Shown in pieces: positions 2,373 through 15,640 of a stretch of DNA of 21,775 nt. Origin of the DNA: a virus. Under the pieces are notes generated by a model that saw only the letters and a list, made by a program, of their open reading frames with translations, did no database searches and was not told the DNA's origin. Position 1 is the first letter of the stretch. Every line of letters begins with the position of its first letter. The position numbers and the translations under genes were made by a program. Where the stretch lies: positions 1-21,775 of the IMG/VR virus record IMGVR_UViG_3300050821_005810. The stretch is one strand, 5' to 3'.

Positions 2373-2849
2373 ATGACAGTCGTTTTGAAAACACCTTTTC
2401 TCGGCCTGGTAAGGCCGCAGCACGGCGAGAACGAAGTGGAAGGCGAGCATGCCGGCGTGCCGAACGAGGCAGCGAACCTCGATGCCATCGACGCGAAGTT
2501 GCTCGATCACAACAATGAGGACGTGCGTCACTTTTTCCCGGGCGCGCCTGGGAATTCCGCAGTCGTCGCTCAGTTCGTCGCGACGCGCGCGATGGGATTT
2601 GCCATCAACGCGCCGGGTTCGAAGGCCGTCCTCGCGGTCGCTGCGACGGCGTCCACCGTTCTGACGGTCAAGAAAAACGGCACGTCCATCGGCACGATCA
2701 CCTTTGGCGTGGCGGGAACGACCGGGACCTTCGCGTTTGCGGCCGCAACTGAACTCGCAGCTGGCGACGTGCTAACTGTTGCGAACCAGGCTTCAGCGGA
2801 TGCGACTGCAGCGGGGATTTCGATCACGTTCCAGTTCAACCGAGGCTAG
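2373..2849 (+). CDS. Phage structural protein with C-terminal beta-domain (158 aa)
   Basis: Starts at ATG 2373 after a strong GGAGGAGGG. Residues 1-55 are polar, with a PNEAANLDAIDAKLLDHN helix-like segment. From about residue 65 to the end the protein reads as a beta-sandwich: VATRAMGFAIN, STVLTVKKNGTSIGTITF, TGTFAFAAATELAAGDVLTV and a final ISITFQF strand. This alternating pattern is common in phage virion proteins that carry fibre, baseplate or decoration domains. Its position between head-joining and tail-terminator genes suggests a head-neck decoration or whisker. No direct evidence separates these roles. Confidence 0.82.
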   Translation: MTVVLKTPFLGLVRPQHGENEVEGEHAGVPNEAANLDAIDAKLLDHNNEDVRHFFPGAPGNSAVVAQFVATRAMGFAINAPGSKAVLAVAATASTVLTVKKNGTSIGTITFGVAGTTGTFAFAAATELAAGDVLTVANQASADATAAGISITFQFNRG

Positions 2850-2885
2850 GCGGCGCGCTGCAACTCTGCAGGGGAGGAGACGTCC

Positions 2886-3185
2886 ATGTCCGACAAAACG
2901 CCGGCTGGCGCGGCTCGCATCGTGAAAACGAAGCGGGTTCAATACGCGATCACGGCGAACGACGTTTCCTCCGGCTTCACCAGCATCGACGTGGTTTGGG
3001 ATTCGCCGTTTCTCGACCTGAATTACACCGCGGATCAGAACGTCGAGGTAATCGCGCCGGCGGACCCATCGGTTTACTCCGTCCTCGGATTCACGCGGGA
3101 CGTGAACAAGGTGACCGTGGTTATCGCAAACGATGGCGCGGCCGGAGACGTGGTCGTGATCCACGCGCACGCGGAACACGACTAG
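2886..3185 (+). CDS. Hypothetical neck-region structural protein (99 aa)
   Basis: Starts at ATG 2886, with GGGGAGGAG upstream. The protein is almost all beta-strand pattern (VQYAITANDVSSGFTSIDVVW, NVEVIAP, VNKVTVVIAN, GDVVVIHAHAEHD), acidic at the end, and has no cysteine or catalytic motif. It resembles small beta-rich tail or neck proteins that flank the tail terminator gene, but I do not recognise a named family. The stop codon TAG overlaps the Shine-Dalgarno region of the next gene. Confidence 0.78.
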   Translation: MSDKTPAGAARIVKTKRVQYAITANDVSSGFTSIDVVWDSPFLDLNYTADQNVEVIAPADPSVYSVLGFTRDVNKVTVVIANDGAAGDVVVIHAHAEHD

Positions 3186-3193
3186 GGGGAATT

Positions 3194-3655
3194 TTGGCAG
3201 CGTCCATTCGCGAACAGATCATTTTGGCTCTCGTGGCGGCGCTCACCGACCAGCCGAATCCGCCGGCGGGCCTCACGATCCATCGCGAAAGGACGAGGCC
3301 GATCGAGCAGGACAGCCTGCCGGCGATCATGGTTTACGCCGACGACGACGTCCCGAAGCCGCTCGCAGCGCAGGTCTACCGATCTCCGCTGACCGAGCGG
3401 CAGCTGTCTCTGGCAATCGAATGCAGGGCACAAGGGTCGAGCACGGTCCCGCCGGACCAGGCGCTCGACCCGGTGCTCGTTTTTGCGGCTCTCGCGGTGT
3501 TCGCCGATGAAAGTTTCGGCGGTCTCGCGAGCGGCGTGGAGGAAGGCAGGACCGTGTGGGTTTCCCGCGAGGGTGACGTTGCGGTCGCTGCAGCGAAGTG
3601 GGGAATCACGGTCAAGTACCGGACGAGCAGGCTCGATCCGACTTCAAAAAGCTAA
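3194..3655 (+). CDS. Tail terminator-like / minor tail protein (153 aa, TTG start)
   Basis: I place the start at TTG 3194, just after AGGGGGA (3184-3190), which overlaps the stop of the previous gene; the open frame runs further upstream, but only across that gene. The protein begins with AASIREQIILALVAAL and continues with IHRERTRPIEQDSLPAIMVYADDD and a C-terminal KYRTSRLDPTS. This layout, an N-terminal helix, a hydrophobic LPAI-x-VY strand and a beta C-terminus, is typical of tail terminator (gpU-like or HK97 gp10-like) proteins that cap the tail tube. Its place directly before the major tail protein agrees. The family assignment is inferred from pattern and synteny. Confidence 0.75.
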   Translation: MAASIREQIILALVAALTDQPNPPAGLTIHRERTRPIEQDSLPAIMVYADDDVPKPLAAQVYRSPLTERQLSLAIECRAQGSSTVPPDQALDPVLVFAALAVFADESFGGLASGVEEGRTVWVSREGDVAVAAAKWGITVKYRTSRLDPTSKS

Positions 3656-3667
3656 GGGAGGACAGTC

Positions 3668-4477
3668 ATGAGCATTAAGTATCAAATTCCGCACATCCCG
3701 ATGCTCGGGAAGGGTTCGATTCTGCTCGACCAGTTCGATGTGAACGGGAACCCGACCGGAGTGTTTAAGCATCTCGGCAACTGCACAAAGTTTGAAATTG
3801 ATTTGAAAGACGATATTGCTGAGCTCTACCAGAGCCTCAACAAAAACGTCACGCTCATCGCGACTGCGGTGAAAAAGCGCCAGCCGAAAGTCACCATCAC
3901 CGGCACTGACTTCTCGTCCGACCACATCGCCATCGCGCAGATGTCGGCGGGGAAAACAACTCTGGCGACGACGGCGACGACGTTCACGGCCGAGACGCTG
4001 ATCTCAGCGGCGCAGGCTCCGAACGCGATCGGCCGCTACTTCAAAACGTTGAACATGAACATCGACAACGTGGGCACGCCTCCGGTGCTGATGTCGAATT
4101 CCGTCACGCTCGTGCTCGGCACGGACTATCTCGTCCTCGATCCCGTCCAGGGAATTTTCTACATCCCGGCCGGCTCGACCATCGCCAGCCACGCGGTCAC
4201 GATCACGTACCACACCCTCGTCGGTAGCTTCGACCAGGTTGCGGCGGCGACGATCCCGTTCGTGCAGGGCCATATTTATTTTTCGCCGGACCCCGTAGAC
4301 GGCCAGTCCATCGCGTGCGACATCTGGCGCGTGAACCTGAACCCGAACGGGCAACTCGGTCTCATCGCCGACGACTACGGCAACTGGTCGCTCGACGGGA
4401 ACATTCTCGACGACACGGCCAACCATCCGAACGCGAATTTCTACCAGTACACATTCATCGGGGTGGGCATCGCGTAA
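3668..4477 (+). CDS. Major tail (tube) protein (269 aa)
   Basis: Starts at ATG 3668 after AGGGAGGA. The sequence opens with an N-terminal strand and loop (SIKYQIPHIPMLGKGSILLDQFD), has a GNCTKFEIDLKDDIAELYQS segment typical of tube proteins, then KKRQPKVTITGTDFSSDHIAIA. The C-terminal half carries beta strands (YLVLDPVQGIFYIPAG, TITYHTL) and ends in a YQYTFIGVG strand. The position before the chaperone and tape measure genes is the canonical one for the tube subunit. A strong terminator follows at 4550-4582, which would allow high expression of this gene and lower expression of the chaperones. Confidence 0.85.
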   Translation: MSIKYQIPHIPMLGKGSILLDQFDVNGNPTGVFKHLGNCTKFEIDLKDDIAELYQSLNKNVTLIATAVKKRQPKVTITGTDFSSDHIAIAQMSAGKTTLATTATTFTAETLISAAQAPNAIGRYFKTLNMNIDNVGTPPVLMSNSVTLVLGTDYLVLDPVQGIFYIPAGSTIASHAVTITYHTLVGSFDQVAAATIPFVQGHIYFSPDPVDGQSIACDIWRVNLNPNGQLGLIADDYGNWSLDGNILDDTANHPNANFYQYTFIGVGIA

Positions 4478-4582: not shown

Positions 4583-4618
4583 GTTTCGAAGTCAGCGGGT
4601 CCGAACCCGGAGGAATGA

Positions 4619-5080
4619 ATGGAAGAGCTCACGCTCGCAGGCCGCAAGTTTGTAGGCATCTCGCAGTCCCTCACCGCAAATCAGGACGATTACATCATCG
4701 GCCACATGCGTCGAGCCGGCGTCCTTGACGTGCTCGTCGCGTCGAAGGGCAAAAAATTCACGCAGGAGCAGGAGGCCGAGGAACTGCTCACCGCCATCCT
4801 GCTCTCCGGGCGCACGCAGCAAATTCTCGCCGGCTGTCTCACCGAAGAGGGCAAGGCCTGGACGCGTGAGGAGGCCGACCGCAATGCAACCTGCTTCGCC
4901 GCGATCACCGACGAAAAAGAGAAGGCTCAGATGCGTACGGCGATCGTGGGGTTCGTCATCGGTTTTTTTTCATCCGGGGAACGATCACAGGAGAGTTCCC
5001 CGAAATCTTCGAGCCCGAACGGAAGGGGCCGCCGCACAAAGAGCGCGGCGCAGTCGACCTCGGGGACTTCACGCAACTGA
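4619..5080 (+). CDS. Tail assembly chaperone, short form (gpG-like, 153 aa)
   Basis: Starts at ATG 4619 after GGAGGAATGA. It begins MEELTLAGRKFVGISQSLTANQDDYIIGHMRRAG and is mainly helical, with EEADRNATCFAAITDEKEKAQMRTAIVGFVIGFF before the frameshift site at 4963. The part after the site is Ser/Gly/Arg-rich and looks unconstrained, as expected for an in-frame tail. It sits between the major tail protein and the tape measure protein. G-type chaperones bind the tape measure protein and help recruit tail subunits; they are absent from the finished particle. The assignment rests on synteny, size and the frameshift. Confidence 0.87.
   Translation: MEELTLAGRKFVGISQSLTANQDDYIIGHMRRAGVLDVLVASKGKKFTQEQEAEELLTAILLSGRTQQILAGCLTEEGKAWTREEADRNATCFAAITDEKEKAQMRTAIVGFVIGFFSSGERSQESSPKSSSPNGRGRRTKSAAQSTSGTSRN
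4963..5002 (+). promoter_or_regulatory. Programmed -1 ribosomal frameshift element
   Basis: Eight T residues (4963-4970) provide the slippery heptamer T-TTT-TTT in phase with the zero frame (4963-4969). After a 5-nt spacer (4970-4974), an 8-bp GC-rich stem begins: CGGGGAAC (4975-4982) pairs perfectly with GTTCCCCG (4995-5002), around a 12-nt loop. Slippage by -1 joins the chaperone to the downstream frame ending at 5286. Slippery site, spacer and stem all have the classical geometry. Confidence 0.88.
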
Positions 5081-5286
5081 TTCGAGTGGTCGCGAAGTTC
5101 GACCGCGATCGGATGTTTCAGGTTTTTGATTGGCCGCTCCGGGACTTGTTTCTCGCATACCTGGAGGCGATGCGCGACGCGGCGCTGGCGAATTACAACC
5201 GCGATGTGCTCGTGTGGGCCACGCTCGCGCCGCACCAGCGGCGCCAGACGAAGCCGCCGGATGTGCCGCGGGTCCTGAGAGGGTGA
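4969..5286 (+). CDS. Tail assembly chaperone T part, made as a G-T fusion by -1 frameshift
   Basis: This frame is reached only by slipping -1 at the T run; it has no well-placed start of its own. GTG 5086 is possible but has no Shine-Dalgarno sequence and would remove a third of the frame. The T part encodes 105 residues, beginning FIRGTITGEFPEIFEPERKG and containing TQLIRVVAKFDRDRMFQVFDWPLRDLFLAYLEAMRDAAL. The total fusion, from ATG 4619, is 222 residues (117 + 105). In lambda the G-T fusion binds the tape measure protein through G and the tube subunit through T. The stop at 5284-5286 lies one base before the tape measure start, so translation is tightly coupled. Confidence 0.85.
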   Translation, partial: FIRGTITGEFPEIFEPERKGPPHKERGAVDLGDFTQLIRVVAKFDRDRMFQVFDWPLRDLFLAYLEAMRDAALANYNRDVLVWATLAPHQRRQTKPPDVPRVLRG

Positions 5287-5287
5287 G

Positions 5288-7993
5288 ATGGCTGACGCTC
5301 CCGAAATCAAAGTAAAGCTCACAGCGGAGGACACGGGTGTCGCCGCTGCGATTAAGGAACTGGGCGCGCAGCTGAAGAACCTCAAAAAGCAGGAGGACGA
5401 GACCGCGGCGTCCGGCCTGTCGCTCGCGCGAGCCTTCGAGGGAATCGCCTCCGCCGGCGCGCTGCTCGGTCTCGCGAAAATCGGGAAGGACGCGTTCGAC
5501 TCCGCCGTTGGGATCAGCAAGATGGCGGACAAGACCGGCCTAACGACACAAACCCTCAGCGTGTTCCACAAGGTCGCGGGCGACGTGGGAGTCTCGACCG
5601 AGGCGGTCGATAAGGGCCTGGTCAAAGCAGCGAAATCGATCACCGAATTCCAGCAGGGCAACCAGAAGGCGGCGCAGGCTTTCGCTCTGCTCAACATCGC
5701 GCAGAAGGACTTCATCGGCCTGTCTCCCGACCAGAAAATTCAGCTGGTCACCTCACGCCTCGGCGGAATGGCTGCCGGCTTTCAGAAGTCCACCGCCGCG
5801 CAGCTGATTTTTTCGAAGGGCGGCTCGGAGCTCATCCCGGTGATGAACGCTCTGGCCGCGCAGGGTTTCGACAAGGCGACCGAGGCGACGTCTAAGCTCG
5901 GACTCCTGCTCGACCGCAGTGCGACCGATTCCTTCATCGCGGCGAAGGCTTCGATTCAGGAACTTACAGACACCGGGAAGGGAATGGCCACGCAGTTCGA
6001 GGCAGGTCTGCTTCCGGCTGTTTCCGACGTCGGGGAAGCTCTGGCCGAATCGCTGCAGCAGGGCGGCGTGAATTTTCAGGAAATCGGCAAGTACGCCGGC
6101 GACGTTGTGCGCGGCATCGCGCTCGCTTTCCTCACGCTCGGCCAGACGCTCGGCACGGTTGCGGCCAGCATCGAGACTCTTTTCGAGGACGCGTTCGATG
6201 CGATCAAAACCCACACCGCCAAAACATTCATCGCGCTCGGGCAGGCCGGCACGGGTGATCTGATTGGCGCGTATCAGACGCTGAACGCAGCGACGAAGGG
6301 ACAGACCGGCATCGTGGACCAGGAGGTCGCGAAACAGAAGGCGATCTATGCGACGCTGCGCGATTCGATCAAGGCGGACGTCGCGAACCTGTTTCCATCG
6401 GCGGAGGAAGAGGAGAAGAGGAAAAAAGCGCGCATCGCGAATCTGCGGCCGGACGAGGGCGACACGACCGCGGAGAAGCCGATCATCGCCGAGCCGCGCG
6501 ACGCCGCGGGGAAGGCTCAGGTCTCGCTCGAGGAAAAAATCCTGCAGGACCAGCTCGCGATTCACCGCGCGTTCGCGAAGCAGGAGGAGGCCATCGACAA
6601 GGAGCGCTACGACGACGGTCTGATTTCATCGAAGGAGTTTTACGAAAAGCGCAAAGCCCAGGCTGCGGCTGACTCCGAGGAGGAAATCGCGATCTTGCAG
6701 AAAGAGCGCGCCATCGCGCTCGCTGCCTCGGATAAAGCCGGAGCGGATGCGGGGAAACAGATCCCGGGTTCTCCGCAGCAGGACAAGCTTCTCGCCGAGC
6801 AAATCGCGGGGAAGGAAAAAGTCGCGGACCTCGACGCGCGGATCAGCGAGGCGCAGATCAACGCCTCAACGAAAATCCACGCGCTGAACACCGAGGAAAA
6901 CAAGGCGCAGCGCGAGAGCCAGCAGCAGACGCTCGACTTCGAGAAGCAGCTGGCCGAACTGCAGGGCAAGCGCAGCGAAACCGCGCGCGCCGAAATCGAG
7001 GCCGAGGCGCAGAAGCGCCAGAAGCAGATCGAGCAGGCCGGCGGAAACGACGCGCAGAGGACCCAGCTGCTCGCCGAACTCGAGCAGTGGAAGCAGCTGA
7101 AGCTCGCGGTCGCGGCCTACGACGACGCGAAGAAAAAAACCGAGCAGGACCTGAAGGCGTTCGAGACGCAGCGGCAGGGAATCCAGATTCAGCAAAAGAC
7201 CGGCCAGATTGCGCCGCTCGAGGCCGAGAGGCAAATCAACGAACTCATAAAGCAGCGGCTGCCGTTGCTGCAGGCGGACGCCCAGGCCGAACTCGCCGGC
7301 GCGCAGAAGACCGGGAACCTGGACAACGTCGCCGCCGCGCAGCAGACCGTCGTGGGCATAAACAACATCAGCGAGTCCGCCGGAAAATTGCAGGAGCAGA
7401 TCGGCTCGAGCCTCGCTTCCAGTTTCACCACTTTTTTTGAAACCGTCGGGCGCGGCACAAACACCGTCGCGCGATCCTTCGAGAAGCTCGCCGCGAGCGT
7501 CATCCAGTCCATCGAGCAGATGCTCATCAAGCTCCTGCTCCTGAAAATCGCCAAGGCTGCAGCGGGCGCGTCCGACGACGGCGGAGGCAGCGGATTTTTC
7601 GCGGGTCTCGCCGGCGGCCACGCCGAGGGCGGACTGATTAAAGGCCCGGGCGGACCGAAGGCCGATGCGATCCCCGCGCGCCTGTCCGACGGCGAGTACG
7701 TCATGAAGGCCGAGGCCGTCTCGCGTTTCGGAGTTCAGGGCCTGGATGCGATCAACCGCGGTCTGCAGCCGCCGTCATTCGCGAGTCTAGCTCTCCCGAA
7801 ATTCTCCGAGGGCGGACTGGTGGGATCAGTTGGCGCGCCTGGTGCGAGCGGCACGGCGCATGTCGCCATCAGTCTCGACAAGGGTTTGATCCTGCAGCAC
7901 CTGCAGAGCAAAGACGCCGGCCGCATCGTGCTCGACCACATCACCAACAATCCGAAGGCCGCGAGTAAAGCGCTCGGAAGGAGCCAGGGATGA
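5288..7993 (+). CDS. Tail tape measure protein (901 aa)
   Basis: Starts at ATG 5288 after GAGAGG. The N-terminus (IKVKLTAEDTGVAAAIKELGAQLKN) is the helical start usual for tape measure proteins. Two hydrophobic stretches lie near residues 52-66 and 277-294. A long charged, coiled-coil, Gln/Glu/Lys/Ala-rich rod runs from about 374 to 720. The C-terminus has GGHAEGGLIKGPGG and PARLSDGEYVMKAEAV (about 776-806), a signature of tail tape measure C-termini. The protein sets tail length; by the usual rule of about 0.15 nm per residue it predicts a tail near 135 nm. It is the largest helical protein here and is preceded by the G/GT chaperones, as expected. Confidence 0.93.
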   Translation: MADAPEIKVKLTAEDTGVAAAIKELGAQLKNLKKQEDETAASGLSLARAFEGIASAGALLGLAKIGKDAFDSAVGISKMADKTGLTTQTLSVFHKVAGDVGVSTEAVDKGLVKAAKSITEFQQGNQKAAQAFALLNIAQKDFIGLSPDQKIQLVTSRLGGMAAGFQKSTAAQLIFSKGGSELIPVMNALAAQGFDKATEATSKLGLLLDRSATDSFIAAKASIQELTDTGKGMATQFEAGLLPAVSDVGEALAESLQQGGVNFQEIGKYAGDVVRGIALAFLTLGQTLGTVAASIETLFEDAFDAIKTHTAKTFIALGQAGTGDLIGAYQTLNAATKGQTGIVDQEVAKQKAIYATLRDSIKADVANLFPSAEEEEKRKKARIANLRPDEGDTTAEKPIIAEPRDAAGKAQVSLEEKILQDQLAIHRAFAKQEEAIDKERYDDGLISSKEFYEKRKAQAAADSEEEIAILQKERAIALAASDKAGADAGKQIPGSPQQDKLLAEQIAGKEKVADLDARISEAQINASTKIHALNTEENKAQRESQQQTLDFEKQLAELQGKRSETARAEIEAEAQKRQKQIEQAGGNDAQRTQLLAELEQWKQLKLAVAAYDDAKKKTEQDLKAFETQRQGIQIQQKTGQIAPLEAERQINELIKQRLPLLQADAQAELAGAQKTGNLDNVAAAQQTVVGINNISESAGKLQEQIGSSLASSFTTFFETVGRGTNTVARSFEKLAASVIQSIEQMLIKLLLLKIAKAAAGASDDGGGSGFFAGLAGGHAEGGLIKGPGGPKADAIPARLSDGEYVMKAEAVSRFGVQGLDAINRGLQPPSFASLALPKFSEGGLVGSVGAPGASGTAHVAISLDKGLILQHLQSKDAGRIVLDHITNNPKAASKALGRSQG

Positions 7994-9180
7994 GCCTGCA
8001 AACCGGAACGGCATCGAGCTACACCGATCTGCTGAATCAGCTCGACACGTTCCTGACCACGAACGGCATGGCGCTCGTGCCCACTTTTGTTGGCACCGGC
8101 AACGGCACCATCGCCGCGCAGGGCGGCTCCGCATCGGTCGCCGAGACGATCACCGTCACGTTCACCAGCTCGACGGCGTTCGGCGTCGTGGGTTCTGTCT
8201 CGGGGTCACTCGGCACCGGCACAGTCGGCACGGCGTTCACTTCGACCAAGACGAACTTCACGATCACTGCAGGCGGGACGGCGTTCGTCGCGACCGACGC
8301 GTTCACCTTCGCGGTCTGTCCGCCGTGGACTTCGCTCCGCCGCACCAGCGGCTTCGAGATGATTTGGCAGGCTCCCGGCAATGGAGGACTCGACGCCATC
8401 ATCGTGGGCGCGCAGGTGTTTTCGAACGTCACCGGCGATTACTTCGACTGGCGGCTCGGCGGATTTCAGGCGTTCGATTCCGCGCTAACGTTCCAGAATC
8501 AGCCGGGCTATGTGGGCGGGCCTGGTCAGACGAAGTGTTCGCCGATCCTTCCGCTCTGGAATTCCACGATCCCGTATTGGTTCGTCGCGAATGGGCGCCG
8601 GGTGATCGTGGTCGCTCAGGTCTCGAGCGTTTTCACCGTCGCCTACCTCGGATTCATGAGCTCCTACCAGGCTCCGGGCGCTTTTCCGTATCCGCTCGTG
8701 GTGGGCGGCTCGCTCGCTTTCCACGGCGGAACATTTTCGAGCGAGCCAGTGGCGACGTCGCCGAATTTCCGCTGGAGCTATGCGGGCGATGAGATGCGCG
8801 CGTTCCCCGTTTGCGATCCGAACGCGATGAGCAACGATTCCGATTCTCCCCTTCGTCTGCGGCAGGTGACCGGGAACTGGCGAGGATTTTCAGCGTCAGC
8901 GGCCGACGCGACGTTCGGCAAGGTCTGGCCCTACGACGGCGTCACGCCGACGAACTGGGACTGGCGGCCGAATCTCGACGGCAGCTATCCGCTCCTGCCC
9001 ATCGTGCTGCATGACAACACGCCGAACGTCTACGGCGAACTCGAGGGAGTGAAGGCGATAACCGGATTTTCGCAGGGCGCGACGAACACCATCACCGATG
9101 CCGCCGGCGTCACCTATCTCGTGATGCAGAACGTCTTCCGCAACACCAAGGCGGATTTTTTCGCGGTCCGACTCAGCTAG
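7990..9180 (+). CDS. Tail structural protein with inserted beta-module (396 aa)
   Basis: ATG 7990 overlaps the tape measure stop (ATGA). The first 30 residues (GTASSYTDLLNQLDTFLTTNG) match the start of the next gene's product. Residues 35-109 form a beta-domain (GTGNGTIAAQGG ... TFTITAGGTAFVATDAFTF) that interrupts what is otherwise continuous with the family. The rest has aromatic-rich strands such as YFDWRLGGFQAFDSALTFQNQPGY, FPYPLVVGGSLAFHGG and DWRPNLDGSYPLLPIVLH. Proteins of this type sit between the tape measure and hub genes in some siphophages. I know no function; a distal tail or tip part is inferred from position. Confidence 0.85.
   Translation: MSLQTGTASSYTDLLNQLDTFLTTNGMALVPTFVGTGNGTIAAQGGSASVAETITVTFTSSTAFGVVGSVSGSLGTGTVGTAFTSTKTNFTITAGGTAFVATDAFTFAVCPPWTSLRRTSGFEMIWQAPGNGGLDAIIVGAQVFSNVTGDYFDWRLGGFQAFDSALTFQNQPGYVGGPGQTKCSPILPLWNSTIPYWFVANGRRVIVVAQVSSVFTVAYLGFMSSYQAPGAFPYPLVVGGSLAFHGGTFSSEPVATSPNFRWSYAGDEMRAFPVCDPNAMSNDSDSPLRLRQVTGNWRGFSASAADATFGKVWPYDGVTPTNWDWRPNLDGSYPLLPIVLHDNTPNVYGELEGVKAITGFSQGATNTITDAAGVTYLVMQNVFRNTKADFFAVRLS
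8092..8316 (+). repeat. Beta-module copy 1 (within the 396-aa tail protein)
   Basis: Residues 35-109 of the tail protein starting at 7990. The signature is G-x-GNGTI, then ETITVT, VVGSVSGS, and FTITAGGTAFV-x-x-D-x-FTF. A diverged copy of the same layout is found at 13301-13591 in the gpJ-like protein. This is similarity at the protein level, not a DNA repeat. Confidence 0.6.
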
Positions 9181-9189
9181 GAGAGCCTG

Positions 9190-10188
9190 ATGCCTTACCA
9201 AAACGGAAGCGCGACCTCCACGACCGACCTGCTGCAGCAGCTCGTCACTTTTCTCGCGGCGAACGGCTGGACGACGGACCTGTCCGCTAGCGAGGGCCTA
9301 GGCTGGCGCGCGCACCTCCACAAGAGCGCGAACTACGTGCATCTGCGCGCCGCGGAGAACGAAGCGGTGTGGCAGTCGCATTTTGGGAGTACCGCGTACT
9401 CACTCGCGATCTACACCGGGACGTCCTTCAACTCCGGGCAGCCCTGGAACAATCAGATCACCGGCGCTCCGATCCAATCGGGCGGCTCTGCTCCCGTGGG
9501 CGCGGCCGCCTACACTTCAGCTGGCCCGTTCACGAATTACTACTTCATGACCGACTCGGCGGCGAACAACGTCGTGGTGGTCATCGAGGTCACTCCAGGA
9601 CTTTTCGCCTATGTGGGATGGGGAAGCTCACTGGTCACTGCCGGCACGATCACCGGCGGCGCTTATTTTTTCGGGAGCGCGAACGGATTCCAGGCGAGCG
9701 ATCCGACTCCGGGAGCCAATGTTCCAGGCTACTCCGCGACGGCCGCGTGTCCCGGCACCAACGCGGATTCACTCGCCGGGAACAACGTCTGCTACGTCCG
9801 CGCGGACGTGGACTCGTTCACCGGAAAGTGGATCAGCATCGGGCCGAACACAGCAGGGACGACTGGATACACCGGGAAGGCTGGCGCGAGTTCCGTTCGC
9901 GCTCATTCGATCACATCGACGTCGCCGATCCCGTCTTACGCGCAATCCGACGGCCCGTCCGAGTTTCAGTTTCTGCAGACCAGCGCGCAGGACGGCCGCG
10001 CGAATCTTCTCCCGGTTTATCTCTGGGCGCTGCGCGACGGAACGACGACGGGTTTCTCGATGCTCGGCTCGCTGCCCACGGTGTTTTGCACGAACGGCGT
10101 CGGGAACGGTTTTTCCAACGCCAGCGAGTATTCGATCGGCGGGCAGACCTACAAAATGTTTCCGAATTTCGCGGTGCTCAAGGCCTAG
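9190..10188 (+). CDS. Tail structural protein, paralogue of the preceding gene at the N-terminus (332 aa)
   Basis: ATG 9190 follows AGGAGA, whose first bases are the stop of the previous gene. The N-terminus (GSATSTTDLLQQLVTFLAANGW) is clearly related to that of the 396-residue neighbour. After it come beta-rich segments (YVHLRAAENEAVW, TNYYFMTDSAANNVVVVIEVTPGLFAYVGWG) and a C-terminal half with RANLLPVYLWALRDGTTTGFSMLGSLP and a final YKMFPNFAVLKA. Related proteins occur in phage and prophage tail clusters, where the function is unassigned. The stop TAG is followed directly by the ATG of the next gene. Confidence 0.85.
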   Translation: MPYQNGSATSTTDLLQQLVTFLAANGWTTDLSASEGLGWRAHLHKSANYVHLRAAENEAVWQSHFGSTAYSLAIYTGTSFNSGQPWNNQITGAPIQSGGSAPVGAAAYTSAGPFTNYYFMTDSAANNVVVVIEVTPGLFAYVGWGSSLVTAGTITGGAYFFGSANGFQASDPTPGANVPGYSATAACPGTNADSLAGNNVCYVRADVDSFTGKWISIGPNTAGTTGYTGKAGASSVRAHSITSTSPIPSYAQSDGPSEFQFLQTSAQDGRANLLPVYLWALRDGTTTGFSMLGSLPTVFCTNGVGNGFSNASEYSIGGQTYKMFPNFAVLKA

Positions 10189-12733: not shown

Positions 12734-15640
12734 GTGCTCCTGCTTTTCGTCGCAACGACTGTCGTGGGCGCTCTGCTCGCTCCGCATCCGCAGGGGCCTA
12801 CGCCGGGCGCGCTCGGAGACTTTTCGATTCCGACGGCGGAGGAAGGGCGCGCGATCCCCGTGGTGTACGGCACGGTGAAGATCGGCGGCGGGAACACGGT
12901 GTGGTGGGGTGACCTGCTGGTGAAGCCGATCAAGCCTTCGGCGCTGGATGTGATTTTTTCGTTCGGCATGGCGAAGTCGCAGGGTTTCCAGTACTACCTC
13001 GGCTGCCAGTTCGCGCTCTGCCAGGGGCAGGTCGACGAACTCCTCGCGATCGAGGCGGACAAGAAAGACATTCAGTACACCACCAACAACATCCTGAACG
13101 GCAACGGGACGCTCAACTATCTGCAACTGCTCGCGAACTCGCCGAATCTTTTCGGCGGGACAAACGCCGGCGGCGGCGGAGGCATCGCCGGAACCATCGA
13201 CTTCTACTACGGCCAGCCGAACCAGCAGCCGAACGACTATCTCTCGCGCGTGCAGGGCCGCGTCGCTCTCGACCAGTCGGGAATCGGCTACACCTACTCC
13301 GGCGTGGGGAACGGCACGATCACCGCGGAGTCCGGCGGCGCGTTCGCGCGCAACGAGACGATCACCATCACCGCGGTCGGCATTGACAACAACTCCAGCG
13401 ACTCGACGTTCCTGAAGATGCGCTTCAGCGTGGTGGGTTCTCTCTCCGGGACGATCACGGCCATCAATCCAAACGCCGACGGCTCGCACAGCTGCTTCGC
13501 GGACAATGCGTTCAGCGCGAACCAGATCAATTTCACCATCGACACCGGCTCCATCCAGTTCAGCGTCGGAGATCAGTTCGTCATCGTGACGCAGCACGCG
13601 CAAATCGCGCCGGCGTACCCGCGGCTCTGCTACTCCGTGTTTGAGCAGCTCTACCAGGGCACATCGAACTATTTGAAGCCGCTCGCGTTCATCATCCGGC
13701 GCACGCCGGACCCGTTCGCGATGGGTTCCTCGTGGGCCAACCTGAACGGCGACGCGAATCCTGCCGCGATGGTTTATGACCTGCTCACCGACGTCGACTT
13801 CGGACTCGGAATTCCCAGCTCGACCGTGGACATCGCGAACTTTAAGGCCGTGGGCACGGTGCTGCAGGGAGAGGGTCTCGGCCTCTCGATGCAGTTCGAC
13901 ACCCAGGCATCCGCCGACAATCTCATCGGCGAAATCATGCGGCACATCGATGGCGTGCTCTACACCGACCCGGCGACGGGCCTGTGGACGATCAAGCTCG
14001 CGCGCGCGGACTACGATCCCACCACGCTGCCCGAACTCACGGTCGACAACGTCCTCGGCACGCCGGACTTTTCCCGCGGCTCGTGGGAAGAGACCACCAA
14101 CCTGGTCAACATCAAATTCCTGTCGCGCCTGAACAACTTCAATTCGCGAATCGTGACTGGCTACGATGCGGCGAACTACGCGATCACCCAGGAAGTGCGG
14201 CCGCAGACCATCGAGTTTCTCGGCATCTCGCAGGAGGCCGCGGCATCGCTGATTCAGACGAGGGTGCTGAAAACCTTCACCTACCCGCTGTCGAAAATAA
14301 AACTCGTCTGCAATCGCACCGCGTGGCAGTTCCGCCCAGGCGGAGTGTTCCGCTTCACGTGGGCGCCGCTGGAGATCACCAACCAGATTTTCCGCATCAC
14401 GCGCATCGGCTACGGGGAACTCACCGATGGAAAAATCACCATCGACGCGGTCGAGGATATTTTCGGGATCAATGACACCGCCTTCGGTGCGCCGCCAGTT
14501 TCTGGATGGGTGAATCCGCTGACGTCGCCGGCGGCGCCGGATTACCAGCTGGCGATGGAGAGTCCCTACGCGATGTCCACTTCCTCGGACGAGCGCATCT
14601 CCGTCGGCTGCGTGCGCGGCGATTCGATCAGCCGCGGCTTCGAGATGTTCGCGGACGAGACGGGCGGCTCGAGCTACACCTCGTACGGAACGATTGACGG
14701 ATTCATGCCTTCCGGCCTCACCGAGGCGGACTACCCGATCAACACCGCAGCCATCGACGCGACCGGCTTCACGCTCTCCGCCACGGGCGCGCGCGATCTC
14801 GACCAGCTCGCCTCGACGACTGCATCCGGTCTTACCAACGGCGCGAATCTTCTGATGTTCGTCGACACCGGAGAAATCTGCTCGTGGCAAACCGTCACGC
14901 CGAACAGCGACGGCAGCTACACGATCTCCGAGGTGATGCGCGGAATCTTCGACACCATCCCGGCCGATCATCCGACGGGCACGCGCATAATTTTCCTCGA
15001 GATGGGTTTCGATTTCCTGAAACCCGCGACTGTCCCGACCGCCGGCGCTCCTGGTCCGACAGGCGCAACAGGCCCGACGGGTCCAACCGGCGCAACCGGC
15101 TCGACGGGTGCCACGGGAAGCACGGGCGCAACCGGCTCGGCGGGCGCGACAGGCGCGACGGGTCCTGCGGGTCCGACAGGGCCTACAGGCCCAACGGGTC
15201 CGACGGGACCGACTGGCGCGACCGGCGCGACGGGTCCGCCAGGAACCATTGCCTCGCGCGGCAACGTCACGGTCACGACAGGCTCGCTCGCGAACGCTGC
15301 ATCGCAAACCGGCACAGTCACCATCGGGAAATCCTTCGCGATCACCCAGCTCTCGGCGACGTGCGCGTGCCGCGTGCGGCTCTATTCGACCGCCGCGCAG
15401 ATGGCCGCGGATGCTTCGCGTCCGCCGACGCAGGTGCCGGCGATCGGAACATCGCACGGCGTGATCTGCGATTTCGTTTTGAACGGGATCACCGGCCTAA
15501 ATTTCATCTGTTCGCCGGAAGTGTACGGCGCGAACTGCGAGGCGACGGTAGTCTCGCAGATCTCGTATTCCATCGAGAATTTGAGCGGCTCGACGACGAC
15601 CGTCGGCGTGACCATGACCTGCAAAATCGAGGAGGCTTAG
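12734..15640 (+). CDS. gpJ-like tail tip / baseplate protein with collagen-like stalk (968 aa)
   Basis: The start is uncertain: GTG 12734 is used, with CTG 12731 also possible; an in-frame stop at 12716-12718 limits it. The Shine-Dalgarno sequence is weak and distant. The N-terminus is hydrophobic, then [28 protein letters not shown], a hallmark of gpJ-type and GTA-type tip proteins. Residues 190-286 are an inserted beta-module. Next come [15 protein letters not shown], a central hub domain (residues 330-590) and a region ending [22 protein letters not shown]. Residues 771-836 are 22 Gly-X-Y triplets (15044-15241). A final beta-domain (840-968) contains six cysteines. The protein probably contacts the host and opens the tail. 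Tip function is well supported; the binding target is unknown. Confidence 0.9.
13301..13591 (+). repeat. Beta-module copy 2, inserted in the gpJ-like protein
   Basis: Residues 190-286 of the protein starting at 12734: [33 protein letters not shown], and [21 protein letters not shown]. The order and phrasing match the module at 8092-8316. It separates [10 protein letters not shown] from [19 protein letters not shown], which are adjacent in gpJ-like proteins as I remember them. Confidence 0.6.
15044..15250 (+). repeat. Collagen-like Gly-X-Y repeat (22 triplets plus GTI)
   Basis: The triplets are [18 protein letters not shown] and GPP, ending in GTI. At the DNA level it is a degenerate 9-base periodicity (G-G-n, then two codons) rather than exact copies. 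Such Gly-Pro/Ala-Thr repeats form triple-helical stalks in phage fibres and spore surface proteins; trimer formation here is inferred. Confidence 0.93.

Follow-up and report, generated by a model that had tools for sequence, protein, structure and literature searches.

We propose that the G/T locus of a 21,775-base virus record (IMG/VR record IMGVR_UViG_3300050821_005810, positions 1 to 21,775; henceforth referred to as the window) very probably encodes a pair of tail assembly chaperones, G and the fusion GT, the latter produced by -1 slippage at positions 4963-4969. This reading, put forward in a first-pass annotation of the same DNA, is strongly supported by the conservation and phase of the slippery heptamer, by a switch of coding frame at the heptamer and by the position of the locus among the tail genes. 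The conservation, the phase, the frame switch and an enrichment of stimulatory signals emerge from comparison of related sequences. The frameshift itself is of a known kind, ordinary in long-tailed phages; what makes the locus a variant is its protein family and the way its signals are combined. The window carries head and tail genes in the order major capsid protein, tail terminator, major tail protein, G/T stretch, tape measure, and tail assembly and tip proteins (Table 1). G and T thus lie between the major tail protein and the tape measure, where genes of the chaperone type are found, and the comparative evidence places the shift late in the first gene, from which it leads into a second frame. 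The same gene order is seen in L077, a relative described below. Elsewhere in the window, two neighbouring open reading frames (7990-10188) may be a tandem duplication, since each matches phrog_687 (structural protein), and a tail protein (12734-15640) contains a collagen-like Gly-X-Y stretch at about residues 770-850.

Table 1. Features of the G/T locus and its flanking genes in the window.
Feature	Position	Strand	Basis
Major tail protein	3668..4477	+	phrog_807, E 1.6e-29
G Shine-Dalgarno, GGAGG	4609..4613	+	read directly
Gene G, putative tail assembly chaperone, 153 aa	4619..5080	+	ATG at 4619; position and frameshift
Shine-Dalgarno-like stimulator, GGGG (candidate)	4948..4951	+	read directly; group anti-Shine-Dalgarno enrichment over synonymous null
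Slippery heptamer, T_TTT_TTT	4963..4969	+	T8 run 4963-4970; kept in 54/55 distinct loci
T domain, -1 frame, 105 aa plus stop	4969..5286	+	frame switch; T match -1 to G
Stem-loop, 8 perfect bp (4975-4982 with 4995-5002)	4975..5002	+	read directly; fold against null
Tape-measure Shine-Dalgarno, GAGAGGG, inside the end of T	5277..5283	+	read directly
Tail tape measure protein	5288..7993	+	phrog_8462, 339, 9483 and others named tail length tape measure protein

Relatives were collected by searching IMG/VR with G, T and their alignments, and a genome collection with T. In addition to the window, 118 loci were screened (L001-L118, where L001 is the window itself and many are repeated views of one contig). 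Two have no T match: L010, which has no G match and was taken as chance, and L118, whose contig ends before the junction. The other 116 loci and the window, all with a T match, correspond to 55 distinct loci as judged by identical junction DNA, of which one (L103) was left out of the statistics and counted as an exception. Among the remaining 54, L060 has no G start inside its contig, and L072 and L116 end within T. Four of the screened loci (L008, L011, L046 and L078) are views of IMGVR_UViG_3300021405_000030, a 39.4-kb record whose G and T proteins are identical to those of the window and which is probably the same phage or a sister phage.

Read from the ATG of G, the codons at the run are GGT (4961-63), TTT (4964-66) and TTT (4967-69), which bears out the phase assigned to the heptamer in the first-pass annotation. 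A run of T is weak evidence when taken alone: TTTTTTT occurs four times over the two strands of the window, a count that includes two overlapping matches at the slip site, against 1.53 expected, and 13 of 100 shuffles reach four. Its weight comes from conservation, because the heptamer is kept in all but one of the 55 distinct loci, as TTTTTTT in 51 and as TTTTTTC in three, and is broken in L103. The 73-column alignment of the junction in the 54 loci contains no gaps. The codon preceding TTT TTT is GGT in 39 loci, GCT in four, ACT in three, AAT, GTT and GAT in two each, and CAT and TTT in one each; it therefore specifies Gly, Ala, Thr, Asn, Val, Asp, His or Phe and ends in T in every locus. 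The first Phe codon is TTT in all of them, while the flanking genes favour TTC (1248 versus 590).

A homopolymer could also act during transcription, if RNA polymerase added one U on the T run and part of the mRNA encoded GT in the ordinary way. The run of eight T in the window would suit such a mechanism, as would the eight or nine T present in 21 of the 54 loci (eight in 20, nine in one). However, the run measures just 7 T in 30 loci and 6 T in three, and this shortness in 33 of the 54 argues against transcriptional slippage, for which realignment sites are described in excerpts of PMC3711429 as often 8 nt or longer, or as two shorter runs. Further, the three TTTTTTC loci keep an XXXYYYZ heptamer yet shorten the homopolymer, and the Shine-Dalgarno (SD)-like and hairpin signals considered below sit at distances suited to the ribosome. 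We regard transcriptional slippage as improbable and favour slippage of the ribosome.

In the -1 frame, translation would run to a stop codon at 5284-5286, with one base between it and the tape-measure ATG at 5288, and GT is predicted to consist of residues 1-117 of G followed by 105 residues, 222 in total; both the extent of the open frame and the length of the fusion agree with the first-pass annotation. The zero-frame stop codon of G is at 5078-5080. The match to T is in the -1 frame relative to G in 55 of 55 distinct loci. Column variability, calculated over 53 loci, is highest at position 3 of the zero frame up to the heptamer and at position 3 of the -1 frame from that point on, and in 253 sequence pairs with an ungapped identity of 68-97%, third positions of the -1 frame account for 57.5% of the differences within the overlap and 52% of those beyond it. 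The switch in variability and the excess at third positions indicate that the heptamer is where a protein-coding extension in the second frame begins. The frame alone is compatible with a +2 shift as well as a -1 shift, since both lead into it. We also considered the zero-frame tail as a second selected protein and rejected it, since variability past the heptamer tracks the -1 frame. Synonymous conservation is higher in the overlap (0.22) than after it (0.12) or upstream (0.13), and part of this constraint is left unexplained. AlphaFold2 models built from the alignments of relatives have a mean pLDDT of 83 for T, which is modelled mainly as helices, and of 77 for G, in which the zero-frame tail (residues 121-153) falls below 50; G is thus predicted to be disordered from residue 121, in keeping with the earlier description of an ordered helical -1 product and a low-complexity zero-frame tail.

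An independent start for the second frame had been named at the outset as an observation that would speak against a frameshift, because T would then be a separate gene and its overlap with G incidental. An ATG, GTG or TTG in the -1 frame does precede the heptamer in 26 of the 54 loci, at -111 in 24 of them. All 24 are followed by G (NTGG) and overlap the TGG codon of the invariant Trp81 of G, which would explain them as by-products of that codon. No such start is present before the heptamer in the other 28 loci, among them L060, which is cut by the start of its contig, and the window, where the first -1-frame start lies 117 nt past the heptamer and within the conserved T domain. Conservation of the heptamer would, moreover, lack a reason if T were initiated separately. 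We therefore consider a separate T gene very unlikely, and ribosomal slippage from G into T remains the preferred reading.

Two natural exceptions bear on the relation between slip site and T. L103 has C_TTT_TTT in place of the heptamer and meets a TAG stop at the third -1 codon downstream, and its T domain is found only in fragments; G (2498-3073 region) is intact, the tape measure is open to the end of the locus, and a search of the 15.8-kb record for a second G found none. In L019 an intact G/GT is followed, before the tape measure, by a second copy of G (3435-3803) that has neither the T run nor the T domain. The slip site and T are thus missing together in L103 and in the second copy of L019, an observation in favour of the frameshift. 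L019 also contains an extra open reading frame just before G (2398-2760), with the internal repeat SGEIIVK present twice and no PHROGs match. Homopolymers are error-prone and L103 shows that decay occurs, but an assembly or sequencing error in the run, or a pseudogene, can be dismissed with near certainty, as 54 distinct loci share the phase and align without gaps around the run, the length of which varies by substitution at its edges and not by insertion or deletion.

The first-pass annotation had described the frameshift element as complete with the heptamer and the stem and had overlooked a purine run, GGGG, which is separated from the heptamer in the window by 11 nt (4952-4962). Across the group, pairing with a 9-mer that we take to be the anti-SD end of 16S rRNA averages about -3.5 kcal/mol for 8-mers whose first base lies 18 to 15 nt ahead of the heptamer, compared to -1.0 to -1.4 kcal/mol in synonymous shuffles. 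At these positions 35-36 of the 54 loci are at or below -3 kcal/mol, where 12-14 are expected; -4 kcal/mol is reached by only 26 of 53 loci. The effect is located in codon -5, as codons composed of purines and ending in G are chosen there beyond their usage: GGG in 11 of 16 Gly codons, AGG in 10 of 16 Arg codons and GAG in 9 of 10 Glu codons, against a group usage of 22%, 7% and 42%, respectively. Purine-purine-G occupies codon -5 in 11 of 24 representatives sharing less than 75% identity (3.0 expected, P=5.7e-6) and in 6 of 13 sharing less than 70% (1.1 expected, P=2.9e-5). The synonymous nulls follow the codon usage of the flanking open reading frames and ignore zero-frame constraint in the overlap, and kinship was handled by thinning alone, at 98, 85, 75 and 70% identity. 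The SD-like element is absent from 11 of the 54 loci. A second anti-SD peak at -48 (37 of 54 loci versus 27 expected), for which we know of no role, shows the noise of the measure.

We considered whether the purine run might be an initiation site and rejected this, as the window has no -1-frame start after it until the one within the T domain. GTG does occur at codon -3 in 23 of the 54 loci, but it is in the zero frame and just 3 nt beyond the purine codon. True initiation sites in the group pair well: anti-SD pairing of -4 kcal/mol or below precedes the start of G in 46 of 53 loci, compared to 34% of 810 control 17-mers from inside G; for the tape measure, the figure is 39 of the 42 loci with an identified start. 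This pairing suggests an active anti-SD partner in the host. Excerpts of PMC5009743 give 9-14 nt as the distance at which SD-like sequences stimulate -1 frameshifting, a range that includes the 11 nt seen in the window.

Downstream of the heptamer, the window has the 5-nt spacer (4970-4974) and the perfect 8-bp stem reported in the first-pass annotation, although in many relatives the stem is interrupted. The window hairpin is predicted at -17.7 kcal/mol, against -8.3 kcal/mol for the synonymous null, with 0 of 200 null sequences as low, and is well under both nulls used. For the group, the mean z of 30-nt windows dips to about -1.3 at offsets +3 and +6, whereas every other offset examined gives a value from -0.53 to 0.26, and the hairpin window from +6 to +36 has a mean z of -1.5, below zero in 21 of 24 representatives. 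Taken singly, 13 of 54 loci (39 nt) and 20 of 53 (30 nt from +6) fall beyond the 5% limit of their synonymous null. The stem is not kept pair by pair: its positions can pair in 71.2% of cases across relatives, compared to 70.1% after shuffling, with 44 of 500 shuffles as high, although sliding the stem by 1-3 columns lowers the figure to 17.5-59.9%. RNAalifold, applied to the relatives' alignment, returned no pairs and no common structure, and no covariation signal was found. We read this as a hairpin that is favoured at the stem site on average and probably built differently among lineages. Interruption of the stem in relatives was an observation that the first-pass annotation itself had named as adverse, and this part of its proposal is weakened accordingly; the SD-like run is statistically better supported than the individual base pairs of the stem.

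The search for tail chaperone families that the first-pass annotation had suggested placed G and T in no described family beyond chance. None of the 53 G or 52 T members matched a PHROGs family at E<=0.01, and Pfam gave scattered weak matches of G and T to unrelated families (best E 0.0035), which we took as chance. At the level of structure, the best 50 of 284 BFVD matches to the G model include none at E<=0.001; chaperone entries of Arthrobacter phage Kitkat rank 6 and 15 (E 0.027 and 0.17; probability 0.97 and 0.85), and at least four further chaperone entries occur in the same best 50 among mostly unnamed proteins. A look for frameshifting in the Arthrobacter phage paper found nothing. The PDB fold search with the G model gave nothing clear, its best Z of 3.6 being meaningless for a helical protein, the BFVD search with the T model reached a best E of 0.82, and no homology was detected when hhalign was run against lambda G and P2 E, each as a single sequence. 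Because family and fold matches are weak, the chaperone role rests on position and frameshift and not on homology; tail assembly chaperones are described as low in sequence similarity (excerpts of PMC5009743), and a family match is therefore not a strict requirement for membership. Searches of 50,697 named phage records with G and T by tblastn gave no match. L077 lies on a 159-kb contig of a metagenome-assembled genome of Terriglobia (Acidobacteriota), on which the phage genes are flanked by CstA and GGDEF/EAL genes on one side and Thy1 and sigma-54 activator genes on the other, so that it looks like a prophage. From L077 alone, the host of the window phage may be Terriglobia-like.

From the comparison of these loci we infer that ribosomes do slip here, at some rate, and that the products act as chaperones. 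Ribosomes would start at 4619 and most would stop at 5080 to yield G, whereas a minority would move back by one base at U_UUU_UUU, where both Phe tRNAs would pair again with the overlapping UUU codons, and would continue to 5286 to yield GT. Slippage would probably be raised, in the manner of E. coli dnaX, by pairing of the purine run at 4948-4951 with the anti-SD end of 16S rRNA and probably also by the stem-loop that begins 5 nt past the heptamer. If lambda is a guide, G would bind the tape measure and the T part of GT would recruit the major tail protein. All three U_UUU_UUC loci (L004, L041 and L111) are among those without the SD-like element (3 of 11, versus 0 of 43 with it; Fisher P=0.0067; after thinning to 24, 2 of 8 versus 0 of 16, P=0.10), and this trade-off, noticed after looking, is suggestive only. 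No trade-off is seen between the SD-like element and hairpin strength (Spearman 0.20, P=0.15 for 54 loci; 0.41, P=0.049 for 24), strong elements and strong hairpins tending to co-occur. As a wider picture we offer, tentatively and with more doubt than confidence, a chaperone family without named relatives, carried by phages of Terriglobia and probably of other soil bacteria, in which a dnaX-like three-part U7 cassette sets the G:GT ratio and the slip codon trades off against the upstream element. The 54 loci, which vary in heptamer ending, SD-like element and hairpin, form a natural series for testing control of that ratio. They also provide a lead for annotating GT in phages in which neither half belongs to a known family, and they draw attention to the tail genes of a phage group that has no match in the named records and has one member in a Terriglobia contig.

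Comparison with known systems, which draws on excerpts of the papers cited, covers lambda, P2-like phages and E. coli dnaX. Lambda-type G/GT frameshifting is described as widely conserved in long-tailed phages (PMC5009743), and one cluster of HK97-like chaperones shifted at 6-7% in reporter experiments (PMC3711429). Like the window, lambda has G/GT between the major tail protein and the tape measure, a -1 shift near the end of G and a T extension (PMC5009743), but its slip site is GGGAAAG, the same upstream stretch pairs with the anti-SD at -2.1 kcal/mol and not at the -5.5 kcal/mol of the window, and its G (one sequence) has no similarity detectable by hhalign. The first-pass annotation had called the T run a less common variant; it does differ from GGGAAAG, but T6G, T7G and T7C sites are already published, with TTTTTTG at the tail site of P2 and Burkholderia P2-like phages (PMC3091744); Smp131 and the prophages related to it have T7G or T7C (PMC3931495). 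P2 E/E+E' and its P2-like counterparts thus share with the window a T-run heptamer in the tail gene before the tape measure and a -1 shift, and P2 E reads KVVGF before the shift where G of the window reads FVIGF. In P2, however, the 45-nt fold is -9.8 kcal/mol (-17.7 in the window), the 8-mer that pairs best with the anti-SD lies closer, starting 11 nt ahead of the heptamer (18 nt in the window), and homology is not detectable, hhalign aligning only nine columns; no hairpin was found for P2, KS5, KS14 or KL3 in the account given in excerpts of PMC3091744. An SD stimulator at tail-chaperone sites is not a new idea, since the PRFect predictor already counts ribosome-binding-site scores among its features there (PMC10885494). 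Among the titles and abstracts covered, a scope outside which fall most subscription journals and the survey of Xu et al. 2004, we found no SD stimulator reported at a tail-gene site. In signal architecture the locus resembles E. coli dnaX, which has an upstream SD-like element, a homopolymeric slip site and a downstream stem-loop (PMC5009743, PMC3711429). dnaX differs in that its slip site is A_AAA_AAG, where U7 or U6C is found here; in E. coli constructs, -1 shifting was weaker on U_UUU_UUU than on A_AAA_AAG (PMC5009743). In addition, the present locus is a phage tail gene and its stem pairs are not conserved among relatives. As its slip site is U_UUU_UUU or U_UUU_UUC and not A_AAA_AAG, we describe the locus as one that probably works like dnaX, without filing it as a member of the dnaX type.
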